A stretch of DNA of 64,000 bases, taken from the NCBI RefSeq assembly GCF_024919275.1, contig NZ_JANWGH010000003.1, positions 223,677 through 287,676 of the forward strand. Direction: 5' to 3'. The stretch's first letter is position 1, and each line of letters starts with the position of its first letter. This document shows, in pieces, positions 19,128 to 63,332 of this stretch. The translations under genes were made by a program, and so were the position numbers. The notes beneath the pieces were generated by a model, which searched no databases, had not been told where the DNA came from, and saw only the letters and a program-made list of their open reading frames with translations. The stretch comes from Algoriphagus limi (GTDB taxonomy: Bacteria; Bacteroidota; Bacteroidia; Cytophagales; Cyclobacteriaceae).

Positions 19128-19826
19128 ATGGAAATAAAAGATAAAGTAGCAGTTGTAACAGGAGTCAGTAAAGGAATTGGATTGGAAGTAGTCAAAATCC
19201 TCTTGGAAAAAGGTACCATTGTCGCTGGATGGGGAAGAAATAAACCAGAAGTGTCGCATTCCAATTTTCACTTTTTCACCTGTGATGTAGCAAAAGAAGA
19301 ATCGGTCGAAGAAGCTTTTCAAGCCACAAAAGCCAAGCTTGGAGATGACATCAGAATCCTGATTAATAATGCAGGATTTGGTGTTGCTGGTCCAACCGAG
19401 ACTTTTTCTTCAGAAGATTGGAAGGCCATGTTTGACACGAATGTTCATGGGATTTTTTACACCACGAAGCGCTTGATTCCGGCTATGAAGGCTGCTGATG
19501 AGGGACATATCATCAATGTGGCTTCCATTGCAGGATTGAATGGAGTGAATCAATTTGCTGGATACGTAGGTACCAAGCATGCAGTAAGAGGAATTTCCCA
19601 TTCTTTGTATATGGAACTTCGTGATTATGGAATCAAGGTTTCTACTATTTATCCGGGTTCTGTACAAACACATTTCTTTGATGAAATTCCGGGTATAGAA
19701 GCCAATGAAAACATGATGAGACCGGAGGATGTGGCGATGACTATTGTACAAACTCTTGAAACCCATCCAAACTATTTCGTGGCAGATGTGGAGTGTAGAC
19801 CTTTGAGGCCGAGAGGGAAGAAGTAG
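19128..19826 (+). CDS. SDR-family oxidoreductase
   Basis: 232-residue short-chain dehydrogenase. Motifs: 'VVTGVSKGIG' for cofactor, 'ILINNAGFGVAG', Ser in 'INVASIAGLNG', and YVGTK as catalytic Tyr-Lys, then 'IYPGSVQTHFF'. This resembles the 3-ketoacyl/3-hydroxy-acid dehydrogenase-like SDRs widespread in Bacteroidota. The last codons (AAG AAG TAG) read straight into a 7-base repeat array: the stop codon forms part of the first repeat unit. Promoter not obvious. Confidence 0.85.
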   Translation: MEIKDKVAVVTGVSKGIGLEVVKILLEKGTIVAGWGRNKPEVSHSNFHFFTCDVAKEESVEEAFQATKAKLGDDIRILINNAGFGVAGPTETFSSEDWKAMFDTNVHGIFYTTKRLIPAMKAADEGHIINVASIAGLNGVNQFAGYVGTKHAVRGISHSLYMELRDYGIKVSTIYPGSVQTHFFDEIPGIEANENMMRPEDVAMTIVQTLETHPNYFVADVECRPLRPRGKK

Positions 19827-19938
19827 GCAGTTTGCAGTATTCAGTAGGCAGTATGCGGTAAGCAGTGGGAAGTAATCAGTAAACAGTATGCGGTAGGCCG
19901 TAAATAGTAAAAAGTTTTCGGTAAGAAGTAATCAGTAA
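19820..19938 (+). repeat. 17-unit degenerate heptad array, consensus CAGTAnG
   Basis: Seventeen consecutive 7-base units without phase change, 119 bases in all, each a variant of nCAGTAn: for example GAAGTAG, GCAGTTT, GCAGTAT, TCAGTAG, GCGGTAA. The first unit contains the TAG stop of the upstream SDR. The GT at unit positions 4-5 is invariant; the others vary. No start codon or coding pattern explains it. Confidence 0.85.
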
Positions 19939-20212
19939 AATTCCCAAAAAAAGCATCCTGCCCAGGTGAGTGTCTTTACTCACCAATTCCTTAATGCTGT
20001 TTTGAGTGGAGACACTCACAATGGCGAAGAAAACAGTAGACAGTTACTATTGCAGAATTATTGGTTTCTTTGGTTTTTTTGTCAGGCTGAGCGGAGTCGA
20101 AGCCTATTTTTTCAATAGCCTACTAAATATAATTAATAAAGACCTCGACTCCGCTCGGTCTGACATTACATATCCGGGAATCGCATCCTACTGAAATCTG
20201 CCTCCTGAACCC
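19939..20212. repeat. Repeat-rich intergenic stretch with two long inverted repeats
   Basis: No gene is seen. It holds GTGAGTGTCT (19966-19975) with its perfect complement AGACACTCAC (20010-20019). It also holds a longer imperfect pair with 24-base arms at 20081-20104 and 20141-20164, each with the core GAGCGGAGTCGA, 20 of 24 positions matching. The longer pair has a 36-base loop containing AGCCTA twice. The GTCAGGCTGAGCGGAGTCGA sequence is, to my knowledge, a dispersed element in Bacteroidota genomes. An open frame across it (20006-20194) is built from repeat and is not a gene. Confidence 0.6.
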
Positions 20213-20242
20213 TTGCCATTCCCCGCTCATTCCCTATTTTTG
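20213..20242 (+). promoter_or_regulatory. Promoter of the gldA-gldF-gldG operon
   Basis: TTG (20213-20215), 19 bases, then TATTTTTG (20235-20242), an exact match to the Bacteroidota -33/-7 arrangement (TTTG, 19-21 bases, TAnnTTTG). It predicts transcription from about 20247-20250, directly at the foot of the leader hairpin that follows. Confidence 0.7.
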
Positions 20243-20247
20243 CCTTA

Positions 20248-20304
20248 GACCTTTCGACCGGGTTTTTACCCTTGCCATGCGGGTGAACTCCCGGTCGGTC
20301 TTTT
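20248..20304 (+). promoter_or_regulatory. Structured leader upstream of gldA
   Basis: The leader can fold almost completely. CGACCGGG (20255-20262) pairs with CCCGGTCG (20290-20297), an outer GAC/GTC pair adds three more, and an inner ACCC/GGGT stem (20268-20271, 20281-20284) holds a nine-base loop. The outer stem is followed by TTTTG and the gldA ATG is seven bases further on, so it could act as an attenuator or translation control. I do not recognise a known riboswitch. Confidence 0.5.
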
Positions 20305-20311
20305 GTAGCCT

Positions 20312-21217
20312 ATGTCTCTAGAAGTCTCTCAACTGTGTAAAAATTTTGGTTCTCAAAAAGCGCTGGATGGGGTGACTTTTTCAGCAAAGCCTGGGCGTAT
20401 TTTAGGGTTTTTGGGTCCAAATGGAGCCGGAAAATCCACCACAATGAAAATCATCACCGGCTATTTGCAGGCAGATTCCGGACAAGTACAAATCCATGGT
20501 ATTGATGCTCTTGCTCATCCCAAGCAGGTAAGTCCTCTAATCGGCTACCTTCCGGAGAAAAATCCACTTTATGCTGACATGTTCGTAAAGGAGTTTCTAT
20601 CCTTTGCGGGAGGATTGTATGGACTTTCTGGGAAAACACTAAAATCCCGGCTGGGTGAAATGCTTGAAAAGACAGGCCTAACTTCAGAACAGCACAAAAA
20701 AATCGGGCAACTTTCCAAGGGCTATCAACAGCGAGTTGGGCTTGCCAAGGCATTGATTCATGACCCCAAAGTTTTGATTTTGGATGAGCCTACTACGGGT
20801 TTGGACCCGAATCAATTGGCAGATATTCGTGGTTTGATACGTGAAATTGCGAAGGATAAAACCTTGATTCTTTCTACCCATATCATGCAAGAGGTGGAGG
20901 CGATTTGTCAGGATGTGGTCCTTATTTCCAAAGGTCAAATCAAAGCTGCAGACTCCTTGGCTAATTTTCAGCAACAGGGGAGTGGAGATCAATTAGTTGT
21001 GGAAACCGAAGAAGCTTTGGAGCTTTTCTGGTTTGACGCGTTTCCAAGTGCCTCCTTCGGTCCAAAGGGTGATATTCAGGTAATAATTAAGGCGGAAAAT
21101 ATCACGGATGCAAGGAAGGCCATTCTTGGAATTATTCAGGAAAAAGAGTTGAATCTGATTTCCCTAAGTCAGGAAAAGAAAAGTCTAGAGGAGTTATTTA
21201 GACAATACACCAAATGA
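20312..21217 (+). CDS. gldA: Gliding-motility ABC transporter ATP-binding protein GldA
   Basis: 301-residue ABC ATPase. Walker A is 'GPNGAGKSTTMK' (about 34-45), signature 'LSKGYQQRVGLAKALI', Walker B 'VLILDEPTTGLDPNQ' and the switch His in 'LILSTHIMQEVE'. The C-terminal extension ends 'LSQEKKSLEELFRQYTK', as in GldA. It energises the GldA/GldF/GldG transporter needed for gliding in Flavobacterium johnsoniae. The identity rests on the following gldF and gldG genes, overlapping by four bases at each junction. Start chosen at the first ATG after the leader hairpin. Confidence 0.9.
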   Translation: MSLEVSQLCKNFGSQKALDGVTFSAKPGRILGFLGPNGAGKSTTMKIITGYLQADSGQVQIHGIDALAHPKQVSPLIGYLPEKNPLYADMFVKEFLSFAGGLYGLSGKTLKSRLGEMLEKTGLTSEQHKKIGQLSKGYQQRVGLAKALIHDPKVLILDEPTTGLDPNQLADIRGLIREIAKDKTLILSTHIMQEVEAICQDVVLISKGQIKAADSLANFQQQGSGDQLVVETEEALELFWFDAFPSASFGPKGDIQVIIKAENITDARKAILGIIQEKELNLISLSQEKKSLEELFRQYTK

Positions 21218-21933
21218 AAAGTCTGATCATCAAAGAAATCAATGCATTTTTGGGTAGCCTGTTGGGCTACCTGATCTTAGCTTTGTTTTTAGTGGCAATT
21301 GGATTGATTGTTTGGGTGTTTCCCCAAAGTAGTGTCTTGGATTATGGCTATGCTGATTTGGAGCCACTATTTACTTACACTCCCTATGTTTTCACCTTTT
21401 TGATTCCGGCTCTTTCCATGCGTGCCATTGCGGAAGAAAGGCGAAATCACACTTGGGAATTGCTACGAACTTCTCCCTTAAATCTGGTGCAAATTGTCTT
21501 TGCCAAATACCTTGCACTTCTGATTCTGGTATTCATAGCCGTCCTTCCCACGCTTTTGTATTTCTACAGCGTGTATCAATTGGGAGATCCGGTAGGGAAT
21601 TTGGATCAGGCTGGCTTTTTTGGTAGTTGGATAGGTTTGTTGCTCTTAGGAGCAGTATTTGGAGCCGTCGGTATTTTTTCCTCTGCTTTGACTTCTCAAC
21701 AAGTAGTTGCCTTTGTATTAGGTGTCTTCTTCTGCTTTGTGCTCTATTTTGGATTTTCGGCAGCTTCCGATTTGGGTTTGGGAACTTGGGCCTATTGGAT
21801 TGAAGAGTTGAGTTTGAGTTTTCATTATATCAACCTAAGCAGGGGAGTAATTGACTCCTCAGATATCTTTTTCTATTTGGGATTGATTTGGTTGTTTTTG
21901 GGAGGAGCTGTTTTGGTCTTGAGAAATAAATGA
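21214..21933 (+). CDS. gldF: Gliding-motility ABC transporter permease GldF
   Basis: 239-residue ABC-2-type permease with six hydrophobic segments, starting 'KSLIIKEINAFLGSLLGYLILALFL'. The 'IPALSMRAIAEERRNHTWELLRTSPL' loop after helix two is the typical cytosolic coupling segment of ABC-2 permeases. Overlaps gldA and gldG by four bases (ATGA), so the three are translationally coupled. In F. johnsoniae GldF and GldG form the membrane part of the transporter; the transported substrate is not known. Confidence 0.9.
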   Translation: MKSLIIKEINAFLGSLLGYLILALFLVAIGLIVWVFPQSSVLDYGYADLEPLFTYTPYVFTFLIPALSMRAIAEERRNHTWELLRTSPLNLVQIVFAKYLALLILVFIAVLPTLLYFYSVYQLGDPVGNLDQAGFFGSWIGLLLLGAVFGAVGIFSSALTSQQVVAFVLGVFFCFVLYFGFSAASDLGLGTWAYWIEELSLSFHYINLSRGVIDSSDIFFYLGLIWLFLGGAVLVLRNK

Positions 21934-23606
21934 GTAGAAAAAATCAACATATCGTCCGGAATATTGGGGTTTTGCTTGGTGGCTTGCTCATTTTCTTGGC
22001 TTTGGGAGCATTTTTGCGTTTTCGAATTGATTTGACCGAGGATAAGCGCTATTCACTTCATCCAGCTACAGAGGATGTCTTGGAGAAAGTTCAAGAACCT
22101 ATTCATGTCGAAATTTTACTCGTAGGGGATGATTTGCCGGCAGGGATGCGTCGCCTTCAGCGATCTATAGAAGAAACAATCCGAACTTTTGATGCTTTTT
22201 CCGATCAAAAAATCAGCTTTTCCTATCTGGATCCGCTCAGCTTACCGGAGGAAGATCAGGAAGAATTTATCCTTCAATTAAACGATTATGGGATCAATCC
22301 AACGAGTTTGATGGTCAATCAAACCGGAGGTCAGCAAACCAAATTGATTTTTCCTGGGATTCTTGTTTACAATGAGGAATTCGAAACAGGCGCACTCATT
22401 CTGAAAGGAGAGATGGGAATGAGTCAGGAAGAAATCCTAAATCAGTCCATTGAGAATTTAGAGTTTGAACTGAGTAATGCCATCCGAAAATTAAGCAATC
22501 CAGGCTCCGGAGCGATTGCCATGGTTATGGGGCAAGGGGAGATGAAAGAGGATGATGGCTATGGTTTGGTAGAAGCACTTGATGGTGATTTTGAGCTGTT
22601 CAAAGTCCCCTTGGAGCAGGCTAGAACCGTTGAGGATTTGGTCAATTTTGAATTGATTTTTATTCAAGGCCCACAAGAAAGTTTTAAAGAGCGAGAAGTT
22701 TACCTGCTGGATCAGTATGTGATGCATGGAGGTAAATTGGTGGTTCTGAGCGATGGTGTTTTGGTGGATGTGACGCAGGCTGGTGGAGACGGAACATTGG
22801 CATTTCCTTTTGAAAATGGGCTTGAAAATCTTTTGTTCAAATATGGAATTCGGGTCAATAAAGATCTGATTCAGGATTTGAACTTTGGATATTTCCCGGT
22901 TATGGGAGGTAATTTCGGAAATCAGGAGCAGCTGGTGCCATTGCCTTGGCCTTTTTACGTACAGGCCTCCCGAATGCAGGATCATCCAATTACCAAAGGT
23001 TTGGATGTGGTCAATTTTCGATTTGTGAGTAGTTTGGATACGGTGATGGCGCAAGGGATCCAGAAAACCCCGCTTCTTTTTTCCTCAGATTTTACAAGAA
23101 TTTTACCAGCCCCCGCTCGGGTAGCCTTTCGGGATATGGAAATGGAACCGAATGTGGCTGATTTCCCTTTACGCAATCTTCCCTTAGCGTATTTGTTGGA
23201 AGGGGAATTTACATCCCTTTACAAAAACAGATTTTTGCCGGAGGGTTTTGACCAAGCTGATTTCAAAGAAAGCGGAGAAGGAAAAGTAGTGGTCATCGGA
23301 GATGGAGAGGTTTTCCAAAGTCAGGTAGATTTCCAATCCGGAGCGCCTTTAAATCTGGGTGAAGATCCTTTTAATCAGATGGTTTTTGCAAATCGTATTT
23401 TTCTCAGAAATCTGGTTCAATATTTACAGAACCCTGATGGAATCATTGCTAGTAGGACTCGGACTTTTCAAATCCGTCCCCTTAACCGCGTGAAAATTGT
23501 AGAGCAAAAGAGTTTTTGGCAGATCCTTAATGTAGGATTGCCTGTCGCTTTGCTTTTACTTTTGGGAACTGGAGTTTCTTTCTGGAGAAAGAAAAAATAT
23601 TCCTAG
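21930..23606 (+). CDS. gldG: Gliding-motility ABC transporter substrate-binding-like protein GldG
   Basis: 558 residues. N-terminal membrane helix (about 12-30), then 'RIDLTEDKRYSLHPATEDVLEKVQEPIHVEILL', a hallmark of GldG. A large extracytoplasmic domain of the ABC_transp_aux type follows, and a C-terminal helix (about 530-552) precedes a basic tail RKKKYS. Length and topology fit GldG. Last gene of the operon; no clear terminator before dnaN, whose start is 222 bases downstream. Confidence 0.9.
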   Translation: MSRKNQHIVRNIGVLLGGLLIFLALGAFLRFRIDLTEDKRYSLHPATEDVLEKVQEPIHVEILLVGDDLPAGMRRLQRSIEETIRTFDAFSDQKISFSYLDPLSLPEEDQEEFILQLNDYGINPTSLMVNQTGGQQTKLIFPGILVYNEEFETGALILKGEMGMSQEEILNQSIENLEFELSNAIRKLSNPGSGAIAMVMGQGEMKEDDGYGLVEALDGDFELFKVPLEQARTVEDLVNFELIFIQGPQESFKEREVYLLDQYVMHGGKLVVLSDGVLVDVTQAGGDGTLAFPFENGLENLLFKYGIRVNKDLIQDLNFGYFPVMGGNFGNQEQLVPLPWPFYVQASRMQDHPITKGLDVVNFRFVSSLDTVMAQGIQKTPLLFSSDFTRILPAPARVAFRDMEMEPNVADFPLRNLPLAYLLEGEFTSLYKNRFLPEGFDQADFKESGEGKVVVIGDGEVFQSQVDFQSGAPLNLGEDPFNQMVFANRIFLRNLVQYLQNPDGIIASRTRTFQIRPLNRVKIVEQKSFWQILNVGLPVALLLLLGTGVSFWRKKKYS

Positions 23607-23828
23607 AAAATCTCCTTGGAAAAGAACTCAAAAAACAGGAATTTATTTGGTGATGGAGGCTTTTCGTCCCCTGTTAAATCGATTTTATTTATAAATTTAC
23701 CCCCATTCCATAAAGTAATCTTTAAATAAGCCCTATGGTATGAAATCGAGCATGTTGAAGAAAGTCACAAAAGGATTGCTGTCAACCATGCGAGATTTTA
23801 CATGACCTTGTAAAAAACTTATAAGCAT

Positions 23829-24953: not shown

Positions 24954-24976
24954 TCTTACACAACCATAAACCACCG

Positions 24977-25006: not shown

Positions 25007-25019
25007 TTGATTGAGTAAT

Positions 25020-32942: not shown

Positions 32943-33083
32943 AGGTGGTTGGATTTTGGGTTAATGGTTATTGATGTATTAATAATGGTAACCTAAGTTA
33001 ATGAATTTGAGGGAGAATGCTTACCCTGATAGAGGGGGCTTCATTTTCCTCGACAGCAGGCGGTTCCTCTTTCCCGCAATGAA

Positions 33084-33132
33084 ACAGCTGCTCACTGCTC
33101 AGTGCCAACTGCTCACTGCCCTCTGCCTACTG
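33084..33132 (-). repeat. Seven-unit heptad array, consensus CAGTnnG on the minus strand
   Basis: Read along the minus strand from 33132: CAGTAGG, CAGAGGG, CAGTGAG, CAGTTGG, CACTGAG, CAGTGAG, CAGCTGT. The array starts two bases after the stop codon (TGA, 33137-33135) of the oxidoreductase. The unit matches that of the 19820 array. Confidence 0.85.
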
Positions 33133-33134
33133 AA

Positions 33135-34640
33135 TCAAATCTCCCATCCAGACCGATACTCCCTAGTCAGCAAGCGATTGGCCTCTTCATCGTTTGTGAT
33201 CTTCACAAGATTGGAATCAAAGTGGACTTTTTTACCAGCGCGCAAAGCAATAGCGCCGAGATTAATCGTATCGGTAATGCATTGGGCTCGGGTAAAGCTA
33301 CCAGGGGTCTGTCTGTTTTCAAGCATAGCATCCACCCACTGATCGGTTTTCCGATCAACTTCTCGGGAATTGATCCGTTCAGAATCCCGGCCTGGCATCA
33401 TTTTACTTTCCGGTAAAAGCACTGGGTTTTCACCTCGGAAACCACCTAAAATTTTCCCTTTGGTTCCCACAATCATCAACCCTTCTTCGGGTGTATCTTT
33501 CGCATCCATTTCCAGTTCTTCAGGAGCAAACGGCTTCATTCCTCCGTCATACCAAAAAAGATCAAAAGCAGGTAATTTTTCCTGTTCAGGGAATTTCCAT
33601 TTGATCATGCAACTGGCAGGGAAGGCGACATCATTATTCACCCACTGATAGACCTGATTGACTTCCTCTCGGGTCGTGGTGCCAAAGGCTTTTGCAGAAA
33701 TGGGACTTCGATGGATGCCTAAGGTTTCAAATAGTGGAAACAAACTGTAATGTCCCATATCAGCCACGCTCCCTCCTCCGAACTCATACCAGCCACGGAA
33801 AACATTGTGCGTATAGTTTTTATGATAAGGCATATCCGGAACAGGACCGAGCCAAAGTTCCCAGTTCAATCCATCTGGGATAGGTTGAGATTCCGCAGGT
33901 CTTTTGGTCCACTGCTGCCAAACAGGTCGATAAGACCAATTGTGGATTTCTTTCAATTCCCCTATCAATCCCGCATCAATCCAAGCTTTGATCTGCCGGT
34001 ATTCGGGCCGATCCGACCAAGCTAAAAGATGAGTAACCAAGCCAGAATCTTTGGCTTTTTGGATGACTTTTCTCCCTTCAACCAATCGATTTGCAATGGG
34101 CTTGTGGGTTACCACATGCATTTTAGAATCCATGGCTGCTAGGGCGATCGGCGCATGAGTATGGTCGGGAGTCATGATTTTGACTACGTCGATTCCACTT
34201 TCTTTGGCGAAAAGTTCTCGATAGTCTTCGTAGCTTGCACAGCCTTTGTAGCCACCTGAAGGGCTGTTTTTGGAATAGAATTTTTCAACATATTCTTTCC
34301 CAATATCCCTGCCTCCAGGAATTCCGGGTTTGCCTTCCCACCAAGAATCGTCACCGATTGTTCTTCGAATATCATTCCGGATGCCATAAGGAGACCAATC
34401 AATGTAATCTGTTGAGAATTTATTTACATCGCAGACTGCAACTACACGTACTTTAGGATTGTTGAGAAGTCCGCTCATTTCGCGAAGGCCTTGTGTACCG
34501 CAACCAATATTCGCAACGGTCAATTGATCAGAGGGAGGGATTTTTCCTAGTCCGGCAATGACATTGGAAGGAACGATGGTAAAGGAAGCGGCGAAAGTAG
34601 CGGCGGAGGCCAGAAAATCCCGGCGATTTAGCGTGGACAT
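33135..34640 (-). CDS. Gfo/Idh/MocA-family oxidoreductase, Tat signal
   Basis: 501 residues. Tat signal 'NRRDFLASAATFAASF', then the Rossmann fold 'LTVANIGCGTQGLREMSGLLNNPKVRVVAVCDVNK'. The EKP-type motif reads as 'HVVTHKPIANRLVEGRKV' (THKP instead of EKP). The C-terminal substrate domain has 'GGGSVADMGHYSLFPLFETL'. This is the long form (about 450-500 residues) that includes periplasmic sugar oxidoreductases. It probably oxidises or epimerises a sugar with NAD(P). Divergent from the sulfatase, with a 12-base palindrome between. Confidence 0.88.
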   Translation of the reverse strand: MSTLNRRDFLASAATFAASFTIVPSNVIAGLGKIPPSDQLTVANIGCGTQGLREMSGLLNNPKVRVVAVCDVNKFSTDYIDWSPYGIRNDIRRTIGDDSWWEGKPGIPGGRDIGKEYVEKFYSKNSPSGGYKGCASYEDYRELFAKESGIDVVKIMTPDHTHAPIALAAMDSKMHVVTHKPIANRLVEGRKVIQKAKDSGLVTHLLAWSDRPEYRQIKAWIDAGLIGELKEIHNWSYRPVWQQWTKRPAESQPIPDGLNWELWLGPVPDMPYHKNYTHNVFRGWYEFGGGSVADMGHYSLFPLFETLGIHRSPISAKAFGTTTREEVNQVYQWVNNDVAFPASCMIKWKFPEQEKLPAFDLFWYDGGMKPFAPEELEMDAKDTPEEGLMIVGTKGKILGGFRGENPVLLPESKMMPGRDSERINSREVDRKTDQWVDAMLENRQTPGSFTRAQCITDTINLGAIALRAGKKVHFDSNLVKITNDEEANRLLTREYRSGWEI

Positions 34641-47309: not shown

Positions 47310-48068
47310 TTATATTAGAAATCTACGAATTTCCCGAACAACTGCTTCTGGCTTTTCAGCATGAAGCCAATGACCGGCTCCCTCAATGAATTCAATTTCA
47401 TAATTCGGGAAATGAGCCAGAATATCTGGGAGATCACTTTGTTGGATGTAATTGGAATTGGCACCGGCTAGGAATAGGGTAGGACCTGAATAAACGGTGT
47501 TTTCCTCCAAAGCCTTTCCTACTTCTTCAATATTTTCAGTAATGACAGGAAGGTTGATTTTCCAATAAAATCCGTTTCTATCCCTACCCAGACTTTTCAA
47601 AAGGAATTGTCGAATTCCAGGATAAGGGATAAACTTTGCCAGTTGGTCATCGGCGTCCTTTCGCGAATAGGTTTCTGAAAGATTAATGGAATTTAATCCT
47701 TCTAAGATTGTCTGATGGTGAATAGGGTAATACCGAGGAGCTATGTCAGCAACGATTAATTTCTCAACCCGATCGGGATAGGTTACTGCAAAGTTCATGA
47801 CAGTTTTCCCACCCATGGAGTGTCCCATCAAGTAAGCTTCACTTAGCCCTTCTTCATCCATTAGCTCTTTCAAATCCTCTACCATTACCTCGTAATTCCA
47901 TTCATCTGATTTAGGGGAATCACCATGATTCCGCTGGTCTACAAGGTAGAGGGTAAAATCATTTTCCAATTCCTTAGCAATGGAAAACCAATTGTCTGCC
48001 GAGCCAAAAAGCCCATGGAGAATGATTAGCGGTTCACCAGTGCCGGATTTTTTAAAATTTAATTTCAT
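47310..48068 (-). CDS. Alpha/beta-fold hydrolase (YbfF-like esterase)
   Basis: 252 residues. 'LIILHGLFGSADNWFSIAKELENDFTLYLVDQRNHGDSP' is the oxyanion and strand-3 region, 'YLMGHSMGGKTVMNFA' holds nucleophile Ser in GHSMGG, and the catalytic His is in 'IEGAGHWLHAEKPEAV'. It resembles E. coli YbfF (acyl-CoA/ester hydrolase). No signal peptide. First gene of the operon that runs to 45048. A heptad array lies 8 bases upstream of its ATG. Confidence 0.9.
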   Translation of the reverse strand: MKLNFKKSGTGEPLIILHGLFGSADNWFSIAKELENDFTLYLVDQRNHGDSPKSDEWNYEVMVEDLKELMDEEGLSEAYLMGHSMGGKTVMNFAVTYPDRVEKLIVADIAPRYYPIHHQTILEGLNSINLSETYSRKDADDQLAKFIPYPGIRQFLLKSLGRDRNGFYWKINLPVITENIEEVGKALEENTVYSGPTLFLAGANSNYIQQSDLPDILAHFPNYEIEFIEGAGHWLHAEKPEAVVREIRRFLI

Positions 48069-48076
48069 GGTATTAT

Positions 48077-48111
48077 AGTCAACAGTCCACTGTCAACGGA
48101 CGACAGCCGAT
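48077..48111 (+). repeat. Heptad array, consensus NGTCMAC on the plus strand
   Basis: Units AGTCAAC, AGTCCAC, TGTCAAC, GGACGAC, AGCCGAT. The first three match NGTCMAC; the last two drift. It lies 23 bases past the stop of the four-helix gene and 8 bases upstream of the hydrolase ATG. Confidence 0.75.
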
Positions 48112-48134: not shown

Positions 48135-48485
48135 CTAAATTGAATTTTTAAGTGCTTGAATTTTTTTGATTAAATCCTCATAAGCGGAATATAGTTTTGA
48201 GAAATCCTCCTCTCCAATGATGCTTCTCTTTTTGCCTAAATAAAGGCAACTGACCACCTCAATTGCGGAGCGAACCGAATATCCAAGAAACTTTTTGAAT
48301 TCTGGTGTGGATTGTCCAGTGGACCCTTCGGCAATATTTAAAGCAACAGAATCTGCAGCTCGTTGGATTTGTGTAGCCAAAATAAATTTTTCTTCAGAAG
48401 GAAAAGATTTGACCAAAGAATTTACTTCAGCAGAAAGTTCAATTGATAATTTCCATACTCGTAAATCTTCGAACTTAAATGCCAT
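48135..48485 (-). CDS. Four-helix bundle protein (S23/23S rRNA-intervening-sequence type)
   Basis: 116 residues. It matches the S23/IVP family: N-terminal 'FKFEDLRVWKLSIELSAEVNSLVKSFP', then 'EKFILATQIQRAADSVALNIAEGSTGQSTPEFKKFLGYSVRSAIEVVSCL'. These are small helical bundles first seen in intervening sequences of 23S rRNA and found widely as orphan genes in Bacteroidota. No rRNA is nearby. It lies between pdxJ and the hydrolase, bordered on both sides by heptad arrays with the same consensus pointing inward, so it may be an inserted unit. Its function is not established. Confidence 0.9.
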   Translation of the reverse strand: MAFKFEDLRVWKLSIELSAEVNSLVKSFPSEEKFILATQIQRAADSVALNIAEGSTGQSTPEFKKFLGYSVRSAIEVVSCLYLGKKRSIIGEEDFSKLYSAYEDLIKKIQALKNSI

Positions 48486-48539: not shown

Positions 48540-48567
48540 GTGGACCATAGACCGTGGACCGTTGACC
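48540..48567 (-). repeat. Heptad array, consensus NGTCMAC on the minus strand
   Basis: Read on the minus strand from 48567: GGTCAAC, GGTCCAC, GGTCTAT, GGTCCAC. It begins five bases after the stop codon of pdxJ and faces the similar array at 48077 across the four-helix gene. Confidence 0.8.
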
Positions 48568-48572: not shown

Positions 48573-49289
48573 TCAAATCTCCAACCTCCTCCTATACATC
48601 TGAATTGTGTTTTCCAATCCATAGTATAATGCATCGCAGATGAGGGCATGGCCAATGGAAACTTCATCCAAGAATGGAATTTTATGCTTTAGGAAGGCAA
48701 GATTATTCAAGTCCAAATCATGGCCGGCATTAAGTCCCAATCCGAGTTCACGGGCGATATTTGCAACTTCCACATAGGGCTGAACAGCCTTTTCACGATC
48801 CTTTGGAAATAGAACAGCGTAAGGCTCGGTGTAAAGCTCCACTCGATCTGTTCCGGTTTCCTTTGCAGGCTCAAAATATTTGGACTCTGGGTTGATGAAA
48901 ATTGAAACTCGACAACCTGCTTCTTTCAACTCTGCCACAATATCCTGAAGCATACTTTGATGGGTGATGGTATCCCAGCCTGTATTGGATGTCAAGGCAT
49001 CTGGCGGATCAGGTACCAGCGTAGCTTGGGCAGGTTTTACCAGCTTAACCAATTCCATGTATCGCTTGTCTGGATAGCCTTCAATATTGAACTCCGTTGT
49101 AACTACTTCTGCCAAATCCAATACATCCTGATATCGGATATGTCTTTCATCAGGACGAGGGTGCACTGTGATTCCCTCCGCTCCGAAACGTTCGGCATCC
49201 TTAGCAACCTGAACAACATTTGGGTTATTGCCGCCCCTTGCATTGCGAAGGGTGGCGATCTTATTGATATTTACACTAAGCTTGGTCAT
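48573..49289 (-). CDS. pdxJ: Pyridoxine 5'-phosphate synthase
   Basis: 238 residues, the usual PdxJ size. It condenses 3-amino-2-oxopropyl phosphate with 1-deoxyxylulose 5-phosphate in vitamin B6 synthesis. TIM-barrel blocks: 'LSVNINKIATLRNARGGNNPNVVQVAKDAERFGAEGITVHPRPDERHI', 'NIEGYPDKRYMELV', 'QATLVPDPPDALTSNTGWD', 'DRVELYTEPYA', 'GLGLNAGHDLDLNNLAFL' and 'DEVSIGHALICDALYYGLE'. Catalytic His and Glu are in 'ITVHPRPDERHIRY'. Divergent from yqeY, with the yqeY promoter at its start. Confidence 0.96.
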   Translation of the reverse strand: MTKLSVNINKIATLRNARGGNNPNVVQVAKDAERFGAEGITVHPRPDERHIRYQDVLDLAEVVTTEFNIEGYPDKRYMELVKLVKPAQATLVPDPPDALTSNTGWDTITHQSMLQDIVAELKEAGCRVSIFINPESKYFEPAKETGTDRVELYTEPYAVLFPKDREKAVQPYVEVANIARELGLGLNAGHDLDLNNLAFLKHKIPFLDEVSIGHALICDALYYGLENTIQMYRRRLEI

Positions 49290-57810: not shown

Positions 57811-57932
57811 CAGTTAAATTCTAATTGGTGCGCAATATTACTCAAGAAACCCGAGTAAGCGAAAAATGTTAAGGAAGAAGGAGGGTGGTGTCTATGGAAT
57901 TAAACCCTAATTTTGTCCCAAATTCCAATCCC

Positions 57933-58544
57933 ATGATCAAAAAGGCCGAATTCGTCGTTTCCAATTCCGATCCTTCAAAATGTCCGAAGCCGGAGCGGGC
58001 AGAGATTGCCTTCATCGGTCGATCAAATGTCGGCAAGAGTTCCTTGATCAATATGATTACAGGCAAAAAGGACTTGGCAAAAACTTCCCAAAAGCCCGGT
58101 AAGACTCAATTGATCAATCATTTCATGATTAATGATCAATGGTTTTTGGTGGATTTGCCAGGGTATGGTTTTGCGAAAGTCAATGTCAAAGTGAAGGAGG
58201 GGTGGGAAAATATGATCAAAACTTACCTGACGAAGCGAAGTAATCTTTGTGGTGTTTTCGTTTTGATAGACAGTAGACTCGAGCCTCAGAAAATCGATTT
58301 AGAGTTTTTGCTTTGGTGTGGGGTAAATGGTGTTCCCGCCGCTTTGATTTTCACCAAAGCTGATAAGCAGTCAAAAACCAAGACCAACCAAAACGTTCAG
58401 AAATTCCTGAAGAAAACGGAGGAAATTTTTGAAGAGGCTCCGGATTATTTTGTCACCAGTTCGGAGACAGGTTTTGGAAAGGAGTCCTTATTGGACTTTA
58501 TTGACGAATTGGTCAAAGAATACGAAAGTGGTGCGCTCGAATGA
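57933..58544 (+). CDS. engB: YihA/EngB ribosome-biogenesis GTPase
   Basis: 203 residues from the ATG at 57933, which gives the usual family N-terminus (MIKKAEFVVSNSDPSKCP). Upstream in-frame GTG at 57885 and ATG at 57894 would add up to 16 residues. GTPase motifs: G1 'GRSNVGKSSLIN', G2/G3 'KTSQKPGKTQLINHF' and 'LVDLPGYGFAKV', G4 'FTKADK', G5 'TSSETGFG'. EngB assists 50S subunit assembly. DUF5606 gene follows after 38 bases. Confidence 0.95.
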   Translation: MIKKAEFVVSNSDPSKCPKPERAEIAFIGRSNVGKSSLINMITGKKDLAKTSQKPGKTQLINHFMINDQWFLVDLPGYGFAKVNVKVKEGWENMIKTYLTKRSNLCGVFVLIDSRLEPQKIDLEFLLWCGVNGVPAALIFTKADKQSKTKTNQNVQKFLKKTEEIFEEAPDYFVTSSETGFGKESLLDFIDELVKEYESGALE

Positions 58545-58554
58545 GCACAAATTC

Positions 58555-58562
58555 TATATTTG
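58555..58562 (+). promoter_or_regulatory. -7 promoter box ahead of the DUF5606 gene
   Basis: TATATTTG is an exact TAnnTTTG match, 20 bases before the ATG at 58583. No clear -33 element is seen at the right distance. Confidence 0.45.
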
Positions 58563-58582
58563 CAAGCTGAAAATCTAAACCC

Positions 58583-59014
58583 ATGAATTTTAAAGACATT
58601 GCTACCGTTTCTGGAAAACCAGGATTATTCAAAGTATTAAAACCTACCCGGACAGGGGTGATTCTAGAGAGTTTGGATGCCAAAAAAGCCAAACTTGTAG
58701 CCGGAATTTCACATCGTGTTTCCATCCTTGCTGATATTTCTATTTACACCTTGAACGAGGAAGGAGCAGAGCCTTTGGAAAGTGTTATGCAAAAAATTGA
58801 GGTGGAATTTCAGGGAGATTTGGGATTGGATTCCAATCCGGATGAGGCTGAACTTCGAGCATTTATGAAGCATATTCTTCCTGAGGTAGATGAATCTCGA
58901 GTATATGTATCCGATATCAAAAAATTGATTTCTTGGTATAAAATCATCCATGAGCAAATGCCTGAGGTTTTACAGGCCTCTGATGATGCCACCGAGGAAA
59001 AGGAAGCAGAATAA
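58583..59014 (+). CDS. DUF5606-domain protein
   Basis: 143 residues. It matches the DUF5606 family of Bacteroidota: 'MNFKDIATVSGKPGLFKVLKPTRTGVILESLDAKKAKLV', 'RVSILADISIYTLNEEGAEPLESVMQKIEVEF', 'RVYVSDIKKLISWYKIIHE'. The C-terminal tail is acidic (ASDDATEEKEAE). Function not known. No signal peptide. It lies downstream of engB, with its own -7 box. Confidence 0.88.
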   Translation: MNFKDIATVSGKPGLFKVLKPTRTGVILESLDAKKAKLVAGISHRVSILADISIYTLNEEGAEPLESVMQKIEVEFQGDLGLDSNPDEAELRAFMKHILPEVDESRVYVSDIKKLISWYKIIHEQMPEVLQASDDATEEKEAE

Positions 59015-59021
59015 GATTTTA

Positions 59022-59046
59022 AGGTCCGGACAAACCGGGCTTTTTT
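59022..59046 (+). terminator. Weak terminator after the DUF5606 gene
   Basis: Short CCGG/CCGG stem around ACAAA, followed by GC and seven Ts. Only four strong pairs, so it is weak. Confidence 0.5.
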
Positions 59047-59053
59047 TAATTGT

Positions 59054-59356
59054 ATGAATAATTCCGATCTACTCACTACCGCTTATTCTTTAGCTCAAAA
59101 GCAATTTGAGCTGCCGGAACTTCCTCCCCAATTTGATGAGGAGCAGGCCGTGAAAATCATTGCTAAAGCCGTGGGGGAGTTATTGGATCGGGATTTGGAA
59201 AAACTGCTTCAAATCTGTTATAGGATTGACCTTTCGGAACAGCGACTAAAGGAAATTTTACATGAATCTGCGCCTGATCTAGTGGCAGAGGATTTAGCAA
59301 GGGCCCTTTGGGAAAGACAAAAACAGAAGGCTGAAATTTGGAAGAGGTATTCGTGA
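59054..59356 (+). CDS. Small helical hypothetical protein
   Basis: 100 residues. Alpha-helical throughout: 'EEQAVKIIAKAVGELLDRDLEKLLQICYRIDLSEQRLKEIL', ending in a basic 'ALWERQKQKAEIWKRY'. I recall similar unnamed proteins in other Bacteroidota, but not their function. No membrane or signal segment. The repeat island begins right after its stop codon. Confidence 0.65.
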   Translation: MNNSDLLTTAYSLAQKQFELPELPPQFDEEQAVKIIAKAVGELLDRDLEKLLQICYRIDLSEQRLKEILHESAPDLVAEDLARALWERQKQKAEIWKRYS

Positions 59357-59530
59357 AGTTATACGCCTCACTTCGTTTACTGAAATATGCCTTTGGCGAA
59401 ATATATCTCACTTCTTACGACGAAATACGGTCGGCTTCGCCTCCCGAAATAAGATTCGCGAAATACACTTCGCTCCGCTTCGTAAGATATGGCTGCGCCG
59501 AGATACACTCCCTTCGGTCGTGAGATATTC
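59357..59530. repeat. GARATA-hairpin repeat cluster
   Basis: A chain of about eight short units, each starting GAAATA, GAGATA or AGATAT, followed by a small GC hairpin. Examples of the hairpins are GCCTTTGGC, GGCTTCGCC and GGCTGCGCC. Unit length varies from about 14 to 26 bases. It has no coding potential: the open frames across it are repeat-made. Confidence 0.7.
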
Positions 59531-59846
59531 TAGGGGTTCCTAGTACTTAGTACAATTGGGAATCTATTTCAAAGTATCCCAGCGCGCTTGCGGGATAATC
59601 CATTTTTTGAAATTCCTCTACGTCTTGCTGGTACGATATTTCCCTTTCCAAAACAAAGATCATGGACCAGCGCTAGAATTCGGTTTTTGTTCTTTTTTCC
59701 TGGGTTGAAACCCAGGGCTATTAAAAATTGTGCCTTCAACCCTCTCTCTTCAGCACTTTGCAGAGTCTTTGCGGGAGATTATCTGCTAGACCTTATTTCA
59801 GCTCGCTTGCGAGCTTTATTTCCATCATATTTCTACCGTGTTCCAC
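59531..59846. repeat. Palindrome-rich intergenic stretch
   Basis: No gene is seen. It contains TATCCC...GGGATA with inner GC...GC pairs (59574-59597), CCTGGGTT/AACCCAGG around GA (59699-59716) and AGCTCGC/GCGAGCT around TT (59800-59815). An apparent frame over 59588-60043 is not supported because it reads across these repeats and into the opposite-strand OmpA gene. Confidence 0.6.
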
Positions 59847-59881
59847 CGAACTTCCCTCTTCCCACTCCCATCTTCCTTCTT
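59847..59881 (-). repeat. Heptad array, purine-rich, next to the OmpA gene stop
   Basis: Read on the minus strand from 59881: AAGAAGG, AAGATGG, GAGTGGG, AAGAGGG, AAGTTCG. It begins three bases after the TAA of the OmpA/PD40 gene. Confidence 0.75.
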
Positions 59882-59884
59882 CTA

Positions 59885-61813
59885 TTATTCCTTAATCTCA
59901 ATCACCTTAAATTCAGTACGTCGATTGACCTGATGCTCTTCTTCCGTTTGAGCATTTTTGATGATCAACTGCGTTTCACCATAGCCTTTGGCAACCAATC
60001 GACTTGGATCGATTCCTTGCGATACTATGTAATTTACAGCTGATTCAGCTCTTCGCTGTGACAAATCCAAGTTGTATTCATCCGAAGATCTGGCATCGGT
60101 ATGAGAGCTTAGCTCGATTCGGATATTTGGATTGTCCTTGAGGATTTGTACCAATTTATCCAATTCCCTTGCCGCATCCGGTCGGATATCAGCCTTATCC
60201 AAGTCGTAATAAATATTTTCTAAAACGATGGATTTTTCTAGAATCAACTGATCCAAAACGATAGTCGTATCCAAGCTTACATTGGTGACATCTTGGATCA
60301 AAGTTGCAGGGTCAGGAGTTTTTCCGCGAGTGGAATAAGGAACAGACTTGGAGAAATACCCTCCTTTGGATGCGATAATGGTATAATCTGCTTGAGGTTC
60401 TAAGGTAAATCGGACGCGACCATTTGAATTGGAGAAGTCACCTCCTATTTGTTTGTTATTGCCATCATACAAGACAACACGAGCTTGGTCAAGGACCTGA
60501 TCAGGTTCTCCTGCTACGCGCTGCTTGGTAAATACATTCAACAGGACATTGACGATTTTTGGCTTTGGAGTTTTGTCTTCGAAATAATAAATATCATCGT
60601 CTCCAATTCCACCTTCACGATTGGAAGAAAGGAATCCCTCTTTGGGATAATTGGTGAAAAAGATGCCAAAATCATCCGCTGGGCTGTTGATATTTTCACC
60701 CAAATTTTTGATGACTTGTTTTCCTGATTCATCTGTTTCAGCTACAAAAAGGTCTAGTTTTCCATAGCCGGGATGTCCGTCGGAAGCAAAAAAGAATTTT
60801 CCATCTGGAGTAGGGCGAGGGAAAAGTTCATTGCCAGGAGTGTTGATAGTTGGTCCTAAGTTGACAGCATTCCCGAAGTCTCCATTTGCCAACTTAGTCG
60901 CTTTGTAAATATCAATTCCTCCATACCCTCCTGGACGGTTGGATGCGAAATAGAGAACTTCCCCATCAGGACTGAAAGCTGGGGTCGAATTCCACCAATT
61001 TTCATCTTCATTCACCGGAAGCCAAATTGGCAATGTAAATCCGCCTCCTCGAAAATATGAAGCGAATAAAGCTGTTTCCGGAAGGTCTTTCGGAGAGGTG
61101 GAATTTCCCCGAGCATAAATAATGATATTTCCATCAGGGCTGATGGCCATTGCGGCTTGATTCAACCCTTCTTCATTTGGAAATTCAGGTAAAGCCTGTA
61201 TTCCTCCTACATCGACTCTTAGCCCCTCTGCCCTCGCTCTGAATAGTTTGGTGTAGGGAGTCCCCGTCGCTGGATAAATCCCAGAAGCTTGTCTAGCTGA
61301 AGTGAAGTACAAGAAATTCTCACTAACTATCGGAGCATAGTCTCCGCCCGGAGTATTAAGCTCCCGGTAATTCACGAGTTCGTGATAAGGCCAGTAGTTT
61401 TCAATGCCAGCTGCAAGATTAATTGATTCAATTTCCCGCTGTGTTCGAGCGAGCAAAGCTTCATCTTGCGTGTAACCTTTTGCATTTTCGAAGGCTTCCT
61501 TTGCCTCCTCATTTTTTTGCTGGGCTTTGAGACTTTGTCCTAGAAAGAAATATCGCTCAAAGCTCGGCTCGATATCAATTAGTTTTTGGTAATAGTTAGC
61601 AGAATTTTCAATTCGGTTGGAAAGGCGATAGCTTTCTGCGATGATTTGATTTGCCTCTTCGTTTTCAGGATCCTCCTCTAGAATTTGAGAAAAAGTATTG
61701 ATAGCATATTGGTATTGTCCCGAGAGGTATTGGTCAGTTCCTTTTTCTTGAAGGCTTTTGCAGCCACCAAGAATTAACATAAATATGAATAGACCCAAAA
61801 AGTAGTGTTTCAT
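59885..61813 (-). CDS. PorE-like lipoprotein: TPR, PD40 propeller, CRD and OmpA domains
   Basis: 642 residues from the ATG at 61813, giving a lipobox (MKHYFLGLFIFMLILGGC, Cys18). The longer frame to 61900 adds 29 unrelated residues. Domains: TPR-like helices about 20-130 ('QYAINTFSQILEEDPENEEANQIIAESY'), PD40 propeller about 150-400 ('VLYFASNRPGGYGGIDIYKAT'), carboxypeptidase-regulatory-like sandwich about 420-510 ('RVRFTLEPQADYTIIASKGGYFSKS'), and C-terminal OmpA domain about 530-640 ('IRIELSSHTDARSSDEYNLDLSQRRAESAVNYI'). This is the order described for T9SS PorE, which tethers the machinery to peptidoglycan. The assignment is inferred from architecture; other OmpA/PD40 proteins of the phylum share it. 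Confidence 0.8.
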   Translation of the reverse strand: MKHYFLGLFIFMLILGGCKSLQEKGTDQYLSGQYQYAINTFSQILEEDPENEEANQIIAESYRLSNRIENSANYYQKLIDIEPSFERYFFLGQSLKAQQKNEEAKEAFENAKGYTQDEALLARTQREIESINLAAGIENYWPYHELVNYRELNTPGGDYAPIVSENFLYFTSARQASGIYPATGTPYTKLFRARAEGLRVDVGGIQALPEFPNEEGLNQAAMAISPDGNIIIYARGNSTSPKDLPETALFASYFRGGGFTLPIWLPVNEDENWWNSTPAFSPDGEVLYFASNRPGGYGGIDIYKATKLANGDFGNAVNLGPTINTPGNELFPRPTPDGKFFFASDGHPGYGKLDLFVAETDESGKQVIKNLGENINSPADDFGIFFTNYPKEGFLSSNREGGIGDDDIYYFEDKTPKPKIVNVLLNVFTKQRVAGEPDQVLDQARVVLYDGNNKQIGGDFSNSNGRVRFTLEPQADYTIIASKGGYFSKSVPYSTRGKTPDPATLIQDVTNVSLDTTIVLDQLILEKSIVLENIYYDLDKADIRPDAARELDKLVQILKDNPNIRIELSSHTDARSSDEYNLDLSQRRAESAVNYIVSQGIDPSRLVAKGYGETQLIIKNAQTEEEHQVNRRTEFKVIEIKE

Positions 61814-61851
61814 CTGACTCAGTTTTGATGATCTTGTCTGAATATTACTAA

Positions 61852-62337
61852 TTAATTTGGAAAGTATTTGTTCAACCAGCTTTTTGCTGCAGGAATCCAC
61901 AAAGAATTCAAATCGGCTTTGGTTTGGATGAGTGGGTTCATCACGGGCGTGTCCGAAACAATGCTTCCTTCCTGAACTTTGCTGCGAATTCCCAAAGCAG
62001 GTGCAATTCGAATTTGACCTGATTCTTTGAAAGCTACTTTTCCGCGATCAGTCAGGTTGATTTGGAGTAAATTTTCAAGCCTTTGTAAAGCTCTGACAGA
62101 GCTATCGATTGAGCAGCCACTTGTTGCGGACTGGGATTCATCTGCAGCCAAAACGATCACCTGATCTTCTAAAATCTCGAAAGAAGTCAGAATCCCATTT
62201 CCGTGTACATTCCATCCTTCACAAAAGGATTTTAATTCCTGTCGGACCAGTTCCAGTTCCCTATCACTGAGTTTTCGATCAGCTTGATAGAGCCAAATTC
62301 GGCTTTGGTCAGAAATCTTATCAAAGGCTACGTACAT
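61852..62337 (-). CDS. Conserved hypothetical protein of Bacteroidota (often mislabelled ABC transporter ATPase)
   Basis: 161 residues, full length. 'IWLYQADRKLSDRELELVRQELKSFCEGWNVHGNGILTSFEILEDQVIVLAADESQSATSGCSIDSSVRALQRLENLLQINLTDRGKVAF' is a well-conserved core. I recall that database entries call this family 'ABC transporter ATPase', but it has no Walker motifs, so that name is wrong. It is cytosolic; its function is unknown. 38 bases lie between its stop and the PorE-like start. Confidence 0.75.
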   Translation of the reverse strand: MYVAFDKISDQSRIWLYQADRKLSDRELELVRQELKSFCEGWNVHGNGILTSFEILEDQVIVLAADESQSATSGCSIDSSVRALQRLENLLQINLTDRGKVAFKESGQIRIAPALGIRSKVQEGSIVSDTPVMNPLIQTKADLNSLWIPAAKSWLNKYFPN

Positions 62338-62357
62338 AATTTGGATATTTTGACAAA

Positions 62358-62390
62358 GAAAAACCCTTTCTACCTAACGGCAAAAAGGGT
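62358..62390 (-). terminator. Terminator of the 62416 gene
   Basis: On the minus strand ACCCTTT (62390-62384) pairs with AAAGGGT (62369-62363), seven pairs with a 14-base loop, then TTTTC. Placed after the stop of the reductase-like gene. Confidence 0.7.
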
Positions 62391-62415
62391 GGAATTGATT
62401 CAATTTTAATTTCAC

Positions 62416-63207
62416 TTAAATCCCCATGTCTTTGGCGATCATTTCGGCGAGATCATAGACCTTGACATCGTTTTCTCGCTCTTTGTTTTTTACACCGTCA
62501 GCCATCATGGTCAAGCAAAAAGGACAGCCTACGGCAATTGCTTGAGCTCCAGTTGCTAATGCTTCTTCTGTGCGTTCGACATTGATGTCTTTTTTACCTG
62601 GTTCTGGTTCCTTAAACATCTGAGCTCCACCTGCTCCGCAGCAAAGCCCTTTGGTTCGGCAGCGCTTCATTTCTACCAGTTCCACATCCAAAGCCTTAAT
62701 GACTTCCCGTGGAGCTTCATATACATTATTTGCACGGCCGAGGTAGCAAGAATCATGGAAGGTGATCTTTTTCCCTTTAAACTCACCGCCTCCCTGAAGC
62801 ACTACTTTTCCTTCATTAATTAGCTGCTGCAAAAATTGAGAGTGATGAATCACTTCATAATTCCCGCCCAAAGCAGGATACTCATTTTTGATGGTGTTGA
62901 AACAATGAGGGCATGCGGTCACTACTTTTTTGACTCCATATCCATTCAAAACTTGGATATTGGGGACTGCCTGCATTTGGAAAAGGAACTCATTTCCAGC
63001 TCTTCGTGCAGGATCACCGGTACAAGTCTCTTCAGGGCCAAGTACAGCGAATGATACACCTACTTTATTCAATATTTTGACGAAAGCCTGGGTAACTGCT
63101 TTGTATCGGTCATCAAAGGAACCGGCACAACCGACCCAAAAAAGAACTTCCGGATTTTCACCTTTAGCGGCCATTTCGGCCATGGTTGGTACTTTGTATG
63201 TAGACAT
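62416..63207 (-). CDS. (Fe-S)-binding protein, heterodisulfide-reductase subunit B-like (CCG domains)
   Basis: 263 residues from the ATG at 63207 (MSTYKVPTMAEMAAKGENP). An earlier start at 63261 translates a repeat array and is rejected. Two CCG-type domains: 'TACPHCFNTIKNEYPALGG' and 'HDSCYLGRANNVYEAPREVIKAL', then 'CRTKGLCCGAGGAQMF' and 'AIAVGCPFCLTMMADGVK'. These bind special iron-sulfur clusters in heterodisulfide-reductase-like subunits and in GlpC/LutA-like proteins. It is the partner of the ferredoxin-type membrane protein upstream. The electron donor and acceptor are unknown. Confidence 0.88.
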   Translation of the reverse strand: MSTYKVPTMAEMAAKGENPEVLFWVGCAGSFDDRYKAVTQAFVKILNKVGVSFAVLGPEETCTGDPARRAGNEFLFQMQAVPNIQVLNGYGVKKVVTACPHCFNTIKNEYPALGGNYEVIHHSQFLQQLINEGKVVLQGGGEFKGKKITFHDSCYLGRANNVYEAPREVIKALDVELVEMKRCRTKGLCCGAGGAQMFKEPEPGKKDINVERTEEALATGAQAIAVGCPFCLTMMADGVKNKERENDVKVYDLAEMIAKDMGI

Positions 63208-63208
63208 A

Positions 63209-63243
63209 TTTTCGGATTTACGATTTTTGATATTGGATTTACG
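63209..63243 (-). repeat. Heptad array directly before a start codon
   Basis: Read on the minus strand from 63243: CGTAAAT, CCAATAT, CAAAAAT, CGTAAAT, CCGAAAA, one T, then the ATG of the reductase-like gene (63207). The first and fourth units are identical. The array occupies the ribosome-binding position. Confidence 0.65.
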
Positions 63244-63292
63244 AGAGCAGCTTTCAAACATCCTTGTTCTCGATAATTCAATTGCTTTGGGT

Positions 63293-63332
63293 TATTGAAT
63301 TTTTCAATTTTCAAATCTTCCAATTTTTCAAT
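63293..63332 (-). repeat. Octad array over a stop codon
   Basis: Read on the minus strand from 63332: ATTGAAAA, ATTGGAAG, ATTTGAAA, ATTGAAAA, ATTCAATA. Period is 8. The TGA stop of the upstream gene (63330-63328) is part of the first unit. Confidence 0.7.

Follow-up and report, generated by a model that had tools for sequence, protein, structure and literature searches.

Degenerate heptad arrays in Algoriphagus limi as probable terminal repeats of small mobile elements carrying an IVP/S23 gene

A stretch of 64,000 nt of the Algoriphagus limi genome (contig NZ_JANWGH010000003.1, positions 223,677 to 287,676; hereafter the window) contains seven tandem arrays of degenerate 7-nt or 8-nt units, two of which bracket, in mutually inverted orientation, a gene for a four-helix-bundle protein of the IVP/S23 family. 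The arrays are probably the terminal repeats of tiny mobile elements that carry this one gene. The compared genomes show that such arrays bracket IVP genes in many phyla and that the array sequence goes with the IVP subfamily. They also show that, at a given site, gene and arrays occur together or are missing together, with insertion directly behind stop codons, and that one IVP subfamily occupies three non-homologous plasmid sites. A complete element would measure about 0.4-0.8 kb and consist of one IVP/S23 gene between two mutually inverted arrays of degenerate 7-nt (sometimes 8-nt) units, and arrays without a gene would be gene-less derivatives or decayed remnants. The initial annotation of the window had listed the four-helix protein as one neighbour of the arrays among others; the gene is indeed there, but its special role, as the gene bracketed by the inverted pair of two arrays, was overlooked.

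IVP genes and their flanking arrays

The window IVP scores 99.9 bits against TIGR02436 (curated cut-off 24) and thus belongs to the family described by TIGR02436 and PF05635. Its element sits between pdxJ and an esterase-like gene. The predicted fold consists of four helices (pLDDT 94.8), and the closest structures found with Foldseek are 2gsc (TM 0.93) and 2rld, followed by Avd of the diversity-generating retroelements. Structures 2gsc and 2rld each hold five chains, and an IVP relative from Xanthomonas is described as a pentameric ring in part of a published account (PMC4990558). Among 163 aligned IVPs, E53 and E76 are fully conserved (1.00) and L8, Q39, S46, G54, R42 and N50 nearly so (0.94-0.99); the conserved polar residues may form a binding or catalytic site.

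IVP loci were scored for period-7 or period-8 arrays of score at least 10 within 330 nt of the gene. In the genus, 66 of 75 loci carry such an array, 43 of them on both sides, against 1 in one shuffle and 4/75 for periods 9 and 10; with period 7 only, 63 have an array on at least one side and 39 on both. This set comprises 30 loci from a PF05635 survey, 40 chosen down its list and five others, and includes one duplicate (L199 of L078), which was excluded only in the inversion and co-variation test. Across phyla, where the best 80 of 265 relatives were taken, the count is 70/80 (42/80 on both sides; one shuffle 1; periods 9 and 10, 9/80). These loci come from Flavobacteria, Desulfobacterota, Gallionellaceae, Patescibacteria, Planctomycetota, Terriglobia, Omnitrophota, Gastranaerophilales and methanogenic or ANME archaea; L268 equals L082, L301, L331 and L336 repeat Algoriphagus loci, and L271, L292 and L305, with short or broken open reading frames (ORFs), were counted all the same. 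Period-7 arrays were found at 52/80 and period-8 arrays at 19/80 of them, other fundamental periods being rare around IVP genes, in keeping with the single octad array of the window.

The association is much weaker for other genes of similar size. At a score of at least 12 within 400 nt, arrays accompany 20/26 IVP genes (10 on both sides) versus 14/209 genes of 80-200 aa in the A. limi genome (1 on both sides). Two further families were rejected as array carriers by the same measure, GxxExxY (PF13366) with 1/26 loci and DUF559 (PF04480) with 4/16. The comparison took 26/30 IVP, 26/30 GxxExxY and 16/30 DUF559 loci, the dropped ones being short, without an ORF or with an ORF above 260 aa; genes in unannotated genomes were called with a simple in-house caller. 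Three of 40 Algoriphagus genomes (G018, G029, G031) gave no PF05635 match, and in 400 kb of G018 there is no excess of intergenic segments at lag 7 (2 vs 3.4 shuffled). The excess is present in the IVP-bearing genomes: 44 vs 3.0 in 1.264 Mb of A. limi (G000), and 7 vs 0.8 and 5 vs 0.0 in 200 kb each of G024 and G009.

Within a locus, one array repeats the other in inverted orientation. The 5-mer cosine between the upstream array and the reverse-complemented downstream array averages 0.539 within genus loci, compared with 0.103 to other loci and 0.045 when unreversed (0/5000 permutations; the own partner lies in the top tenth for 18/29 loci). Across phyla the values are 0.482, 0.055 and 0.041 (40 loci). 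Terminal inverted repeats, as in insertion sequences or miniature inverted-repeat transposable elements (MITEs), are therefore present, in the form of inverted tandem arrays. Array sequence also tracks IVP identity, both in the genus (Mantel r 0.303, 0/2000, 33 loci) and across phyla (r 0.221, 1/2000, 40 loci). IVP pairs at least 60% identical between families or phyla have a mean array cosine of 0.284 (20 pairs, including one at 98%), versus 0.036-0.075 below 60%. GC skew is positive on the strand running into the element in 101/129 elements, 51/63 of those outside Algoriphagus.

These properties bear on the simplest alternative, namely that the arrays are slippage microsatellites, with 7 nt as a length favoured by the polymerase, and are unrelated to IVP. 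It would agree with the observation that, in many genomes, no long simple repeat is commoner than the heptamer (Mrazek 2007, quoted in PMC4679880) and with the perfection of some arrays, such as TTAACGA. The strong association with IVP flanks and the inversion already disfavour it. Moreover, uniform drift from one repeated unit is not what the columns display, as they are unequally conserved (variance 0.0328 vs 0.0173 under a uniform null; 33/78 arrays at p<0.05, uncorrected). We consider slippage alone a very improbable origin.

Occupied and empty sites

Most of the similar IVP pairs within the genus lie at orthologous places, so that the co-variation there reflects co-inheritance and not movement, and as proof of movement it is weakened. 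Plasmid comparisons were sought for this reason. IVP genes occur in 44 plasmid records, 38 of them cyanobacterial by name, and in none of 50,697 phage records. Eighteen of the 44 were fetched (L360/L361 and L366/L367 are near-duplicates), and in 17/18 a period-7 or period-8 array of score at least 10 lies near the gene (250-nt flanks, no shuffle). Several of the plasmid IVPs sit between operon genes, including nrd subunits, tra genes and, in three cyanobacterial CRISPR-Cas operons (L355, L359, L364), cas6 and cas4 twice, in two genera, and cas10 and cmr3 once. The two IVPs between cas6 and cas4 are 39% identical and differ in their arrays. By hand count, a gene precedes the IVP in the same direction in 14/17 annotated loci.

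Filled and empty states of the same site were found repeatedly on close relatives among the cyanobacterial plasmids. At site A, L366 differs from the empty L371 by a 428-bp insertion behind a stop codon, of which prefix and suffix overlap by exactly 5 bp (GTAAT); the near-duplicate L367 fails the exact 5-bp test against L371 owing to a flank substitution. Five more records (H50-H54) have the same 77% cover at 97-98% identity. At this site L372 retains the left array together with an IVP gene fragment that is truncated and has lost its start, a copy that may be turning into a solo array. Site E2 is filled in L365 and L382 and empty, with a 3-nt gap, in L368, L379 and L380. Site D is filled in L360 and empty in L377 and L378. 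Site C is filled in L358, empty in L374 and L375, and holds facing arrays without a gene in L376. Facing arrays without a gene also occupy site E3 in L365 and L381, with one array in L380 and none in L379 and L382 (by eye). Site B (L359 vs L373) was rejected as an empty site, since another insert is present there. Finally, the IVPs of L363, L365 and L366 are 79-83% identical and have like heptads without any flank homology, which argues that gene and ends travel together.

A corresponding range of states was observed in Algoriphagus, in line with the proposal that the presence of an array at the same gene end be compared between relatives. In the gap behind the SDR gene (stop at 19826 of the window), the relative G046 has a minus-strand IVP gene between a CAGT array and an inverted CAGT array; G010 is arranged likewise except that its IVP gene, whose product is 68% identical to that of G046, lies on the plus strand. 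G034 has two short facing arrays and no gene, A. limi itself a long array plus a mere remnant of its partner, and G045 only a short degenerate run. In 15/20 genomes shown, no array was seen by eye within 260 nt behind the SDR stop. The window IVP gene is also found at the same site in G046 and G045. The array at 33085 has a weaker counterpart in the orthologous gap of G045 and none in G034 (70-nt gap) or G046. The array at 59847 is found in G046 and absent from G045; that at 63209 is kept in G046; and that at 63293 is mostly lost in G046, the gap being just 50 nt in G045.

One could suppose instead that the IVP locus is a resident regulatory locus and not mobile, the arrays being binding sites of an IVP regulon or RNA-processing sites such as stems cut by RNase III. 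Paired arrays are able to form stems, RNase III cuts intervening sequences (IVSs) out of 23S rRNA (according to PMC4990558), similar genus IVPs mostly lie at orthologous places, and there are more solo arrays than IVP genes. Against such a locus speak the occupied and empty states of a site on closely similar plasmids, the presence of one subfamily at three sites, the unrelated neighbours, and a gene orientation that differs at one site; we regard this explanation as improbable.

Several observations nevertheless weigh against the arrays being ends of mobile IVP elements. The target-site duplication is a clean 5 bp in one comparison only. At site E2, TTCTA flanks the element in L365 with one G missing beyond, so that the exact test fails by one base, and at site D the last integrase codons differ and there is no duplication. 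Empty sites could be precise losses instead of the pre-insertion state. In the genus, 162/168 IVP pairs at 60-75% identity and 70/71 at 75-90% have homologous flanks; as similar IVPs mostly share their flanks, movement within the genus must be slow. Only one genus pair above 75% identity has flanks without homology, and its arrays are unlike (cosine 0.05). No heptads are visible by eye at two of the six A. limi IVP genes (L351, L352), and the far ends of cross-phylum IVP loci also have arrays in 19/72 cases. The IVP-less G018 still contains one array of score at least 12 and five CAGT-pattern matches in two regions, perhaps relics. In A. limi, 22/27 gap arrays of the genome sample described below are not near an IVP gene, and of these only six have an inverted partner (2 expected); for solo arrays, including those at 33084, 59847, 63209 and 63293, derivation from an IVP element is therefore something we infer. 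IVP itself has no recognisable catalytic domain. In Xanthomonas, passages of Rehm et al. 2015 (PMC4692102) describe heptads as generally not tied to mobile elements and their sites as more stable than controls.

A possible role for the IVP ring and related systems

In the elements read, the arrays enclose no gene other than IVP, and no recognisable transposase lies inside. We propose that an IVP ring would bind the repeats at each end, with roughly one unit to a subunit, and would then direct the element into new sites, alone or with a host enzyme; stop codons may be favoured because insertion there spares both neighbours. Over 119 arrays from 66 non-redundant elements the median length is 5.14 units, with the fullest bin at 4.5-5; a length near five units is suggestive, by analogy, of one unit per subunit of a pentamer. 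In this respect the four-unit preference reported in part of Rehm et al. 2015 (PMC4692102) is unlike five per pentamer.

In its boldest form, which we put forward tentatively, the proposal would be that a lone four-helix ring protein, recognising the inverted 7- or 8-nt arrays at about five units per pentamer, moves an element behind stop codons in bacteria and archaea without a known recombinase, and that the heptads of cyanobacteria, Xanthomonas and Bacteroidota are its gene-less offspring. A reverse transcriptase was rejected as required partner, since G023, G024, G026 and G039, with 10, 11, 12 and 8 IVP matches, have no RVT_1 match. An IS200-like Y1 transposase was likewise rejected as required driver, being absent from G001 (only 89% complete), G014 and G038, which have 5, 8 and 3 IVPs.

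The elements could also be MITE-like and moved in trans by a transposase encoded elsewhere, with IVP as a passenger or maintenance gene. This coincides with our preferred explanation save for the role of IVP. A duplication of 5 bp is typical of known transposases, and both the existence of gene-less facing arrays and the absence of a recognised catalytic domain in IVP would be accounted for. A mere passenger would not be expected to be repeatedly the gene between the arrays, nor would the arrays be expected to co-vary with it, and Y1 is not required in the three genomes named, although that survey was limited to the Y1 family. We hold this to be rather unlikely. The novelty of an IVP-driven element lies in the lack of a recognised recombinase in it, and would be less were a known transposase to act on it in trans.

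Reports of heptad arrays in cyanobacteria go back to about 1990, and the heptamers there are known as short tandemly repeated repetitive sequences (STRR). The link to them drawn in the initial annotation is apt. The annotation knew of no system in Bacteroidota that ties heptads to stop codons. Stop-anchored heptads are not new in general: GGGAATC and GGGGA(C/T)T heptads near stop codons of Xanthomonas and Nostoc are in print in passages of Rehm et al. 2015 (PMC4692102). For five Bacteroidetes, MacGregor 2015 (PMC4679880) describes TAACTGA heptamer repeats, one set of them directly behind a stop codon. What appears to be new is the link of heptad arrays to IVP; stop-adjacent heptads as such were already known. 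Among open-access papers, judged by title or start of the abstract, none was found to connect heptad arrays with S23/IVP genes; preprints and subscription papers lay outside that scope.

The Xanthomonas and Nostoc heptads resemble the present arrays in overlapping stop codons, in a G-rich sense strand after stops and, in Xcc, in 70 inverted pairs, as far as the passages of PMC4692102 go; in addition, the Nostoc-type plasmid IVP genes analysed here have heptad arrays. They differ in that there are few inverted pairs in Nostoc PCC 7120, and neither S23 nor XCC0516, the IVP of Xanthomonas campestris with a solved structure, could be found in the main text. The TAACTGA repeats of Beggiatoaceae, cyanobacteria and five Bacteroidetes are likewise intergenic direct heptad repeats, for which horizontal spread and a mobile repeat-binding protein were suggested. 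Unlike the arrays studied here, they consist of one fixed heptamer, mostly just before start codons in the main genome, and in PMC4679880 no binding protein is identified and neither S23 nor four helix occurs in the text.

The IVSs of 23S rRNA with an S23/IVP ORF share with the IVP elements the protein family, the shortness, the inverted termini and a patchy distribution, and have been called selfish (part of PMC4990558). The window element, in contrast, lies between protein genes and not in a 23S rRNA helix, gene-less copies exist, and in place of the plain 28-bp stem described for Coxiella in the same source it has inverted 7-nt tandem arrays. Avd has the same fold (Foldseek TM 0.78 to 4dwl), but with an E-value of only 0.25 and 6-8% identity, and several IVP-rich genomes lack a reverse transcriptase match. 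The G046 IVP has sub-cut-off matches to NF033474 (1.1e-7) and phrog_3206 (2.4e-10). Repetitive extragenic palindromic (REP)/RAYT elements and MITEs are also small, intergenic and inverted, with non-coding derivatives, whereas the IVP elements read have no transposase gene and have termini of tandem units.

No origin has been agreed on for the heptad arrays of cyanobacteria, Xanthomonas, Beggiatoaceae and Bacteroidota, and structures of the S23/IVP family have been solved although it has no known function; if IVP explains the arrays, two open questions become one testable system. There would then exist a mobile element with only a small four-helix protein, its fold related to that of Avd, the partner of a reverse transcriptase. 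It would insert into operons, for instance between cas6 and cas4, and leave the genes on either side intact, and its ends would be a readable code of array sequence versus IVP sequence.

Arrays of the window and of the genome

Period 7 was scored in intergenic segments of a 1.264-Mb sample of the 3.77-Mb genome against shuffles, and the signal persists: 23 segments reach a score of at least 12 at lag 7 vs 0.5 in shuffles, and 44 vs 5.2 reach at least 9. At lags 4-6 and 8-13 there are 0-5 segments of score at least 12 (the most at lag 11, 5, and lag 8, 3), while the multiples of 7 (14, 21, 28, 35) are also high. Arrays favour gene ends, as had been suggested. Of 26 gap arrays, 13 are no more than 15 nt from a stop codon, in excess of the mean of 5.6 under random placement in the same gaps (reached in 0/2000), and start codons are not enriched (6/23 vs 4.35 expected, reached by 483/2000 random placements). 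Of the 41 candidate arrays in the sample, 25 are in G000 C1:260000-300000 and 440000-500000, around two polysaccharide-synthesis islands. An integron-like reading of these islands was set aside without test once IVP genes had been seen there; other array-rich places of the genome also hold IVP-type genes. As the consensus differs from family to family, counts of fixed heptad patterns do not follow the number of IVPs and fail as a proxy for it (G006 has one IVP yet 41 AAGTAYN matches).

The features of the window are listed in Table 1. Each array was tested by its best score at lag 7 (14, 21), or at lag 8 (16, 24) for the array at 63293, against 500 dinucleotide shuffles of about 400 surrounding bases.

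Table 1. Arrays and IVP gene in the window, with P values from shuffled context
Feature	Position	Strand	Context	Support
CAGTNNN heptad array	19822..19940	+	overlaps stop codon of SDR gene (19128-19826)	P=0.000
Partner-array remnant	20189..20209	-	matches inverted partner array of G046 (ACTGAAATCTGCC...)	by eye
CAGTNNN array	33085..33132	-	2 nt past stop of minus-strand gene 33135-34640	P=0.000
Outer array of IVP element	48078..48109	+	downstream of IVP gene; 8-10 nt from start codon of gene 47310-48068	P=0.128
IVP/S23 four-helix-bundle gene	48135..48485	-	116 aa	TIGR02436
GGTCNAY array	48540..48567	-	upstream of IVP gene; inverted vs 48078-48109; abuts stop codon of pdxJ (48573-49289, minus)	P=0.002
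GAAGNNN-like array	59847..59884	-	adjoins stop of OmpA-like gene 59885-61900	P=0.010
GATTTNN array	63209..63240	+	adjoins start codon	P=0.000
Octad array	63293..63332	-	adjoins stop codon	P=0.000

All seven arrays are thus found where they had been placed, with unequal support: six are significant, and the array at 48077, which is not significant alone, is supported as the inverted partner of the array at 48540, the pair being kept in two relatives. Tandem Repeats Finder (TRF) reports five of the seven. The heptad phase is real and each locus has its own consensus, but the proposed common consensus Y-R-G-T-N-N-R dissolves by eye into several families (CAGTNNN, GGTCNAY, GAAGNNN, GATTTNN). Six arrays had been assigned to stop codons and one to a start codon; anchoring to stops stands, whereas the count of a single start does not, as two arrays (48077, 63209) adjoin start codons. 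The neighbouring genes are unrelated, as described, several of their names resting on scores below model cut-offs.

Other repeats were noted in passing. An inverted repeat, GTCAGGCTGAGCGGAGTCGAAGCC...GACCTCGACTCCGCTCGGTCTGAC, at 20073-20168 of the window looks REP-like and has many dispersed matches in the genus. The divergent IVP-like gene L351 (G000 C1:1394075) is flanked by a longer GATAGC/CTACGCAGATA repeat and not by heptads. The G046 gap (L252-L255) orthologous to window positions 32943-33134 contains, by eye, a small GIY-YIG-like gene among CGTCACTGCGAG / CTCGCAATGACG repeats, possibly a further small gene associated with a repeat type of its own. In the flanks of the GxxExxY (PDDEXK_3) genes L118, L121 and L127 there are CTCTGTG/ACTCCGTG repeats, and upstream and downstream flanks of GxxExxY genes have 13.3 inverted 7-mers in common per locus, versus 6.4 between loci and 8.4 in direct orientation.

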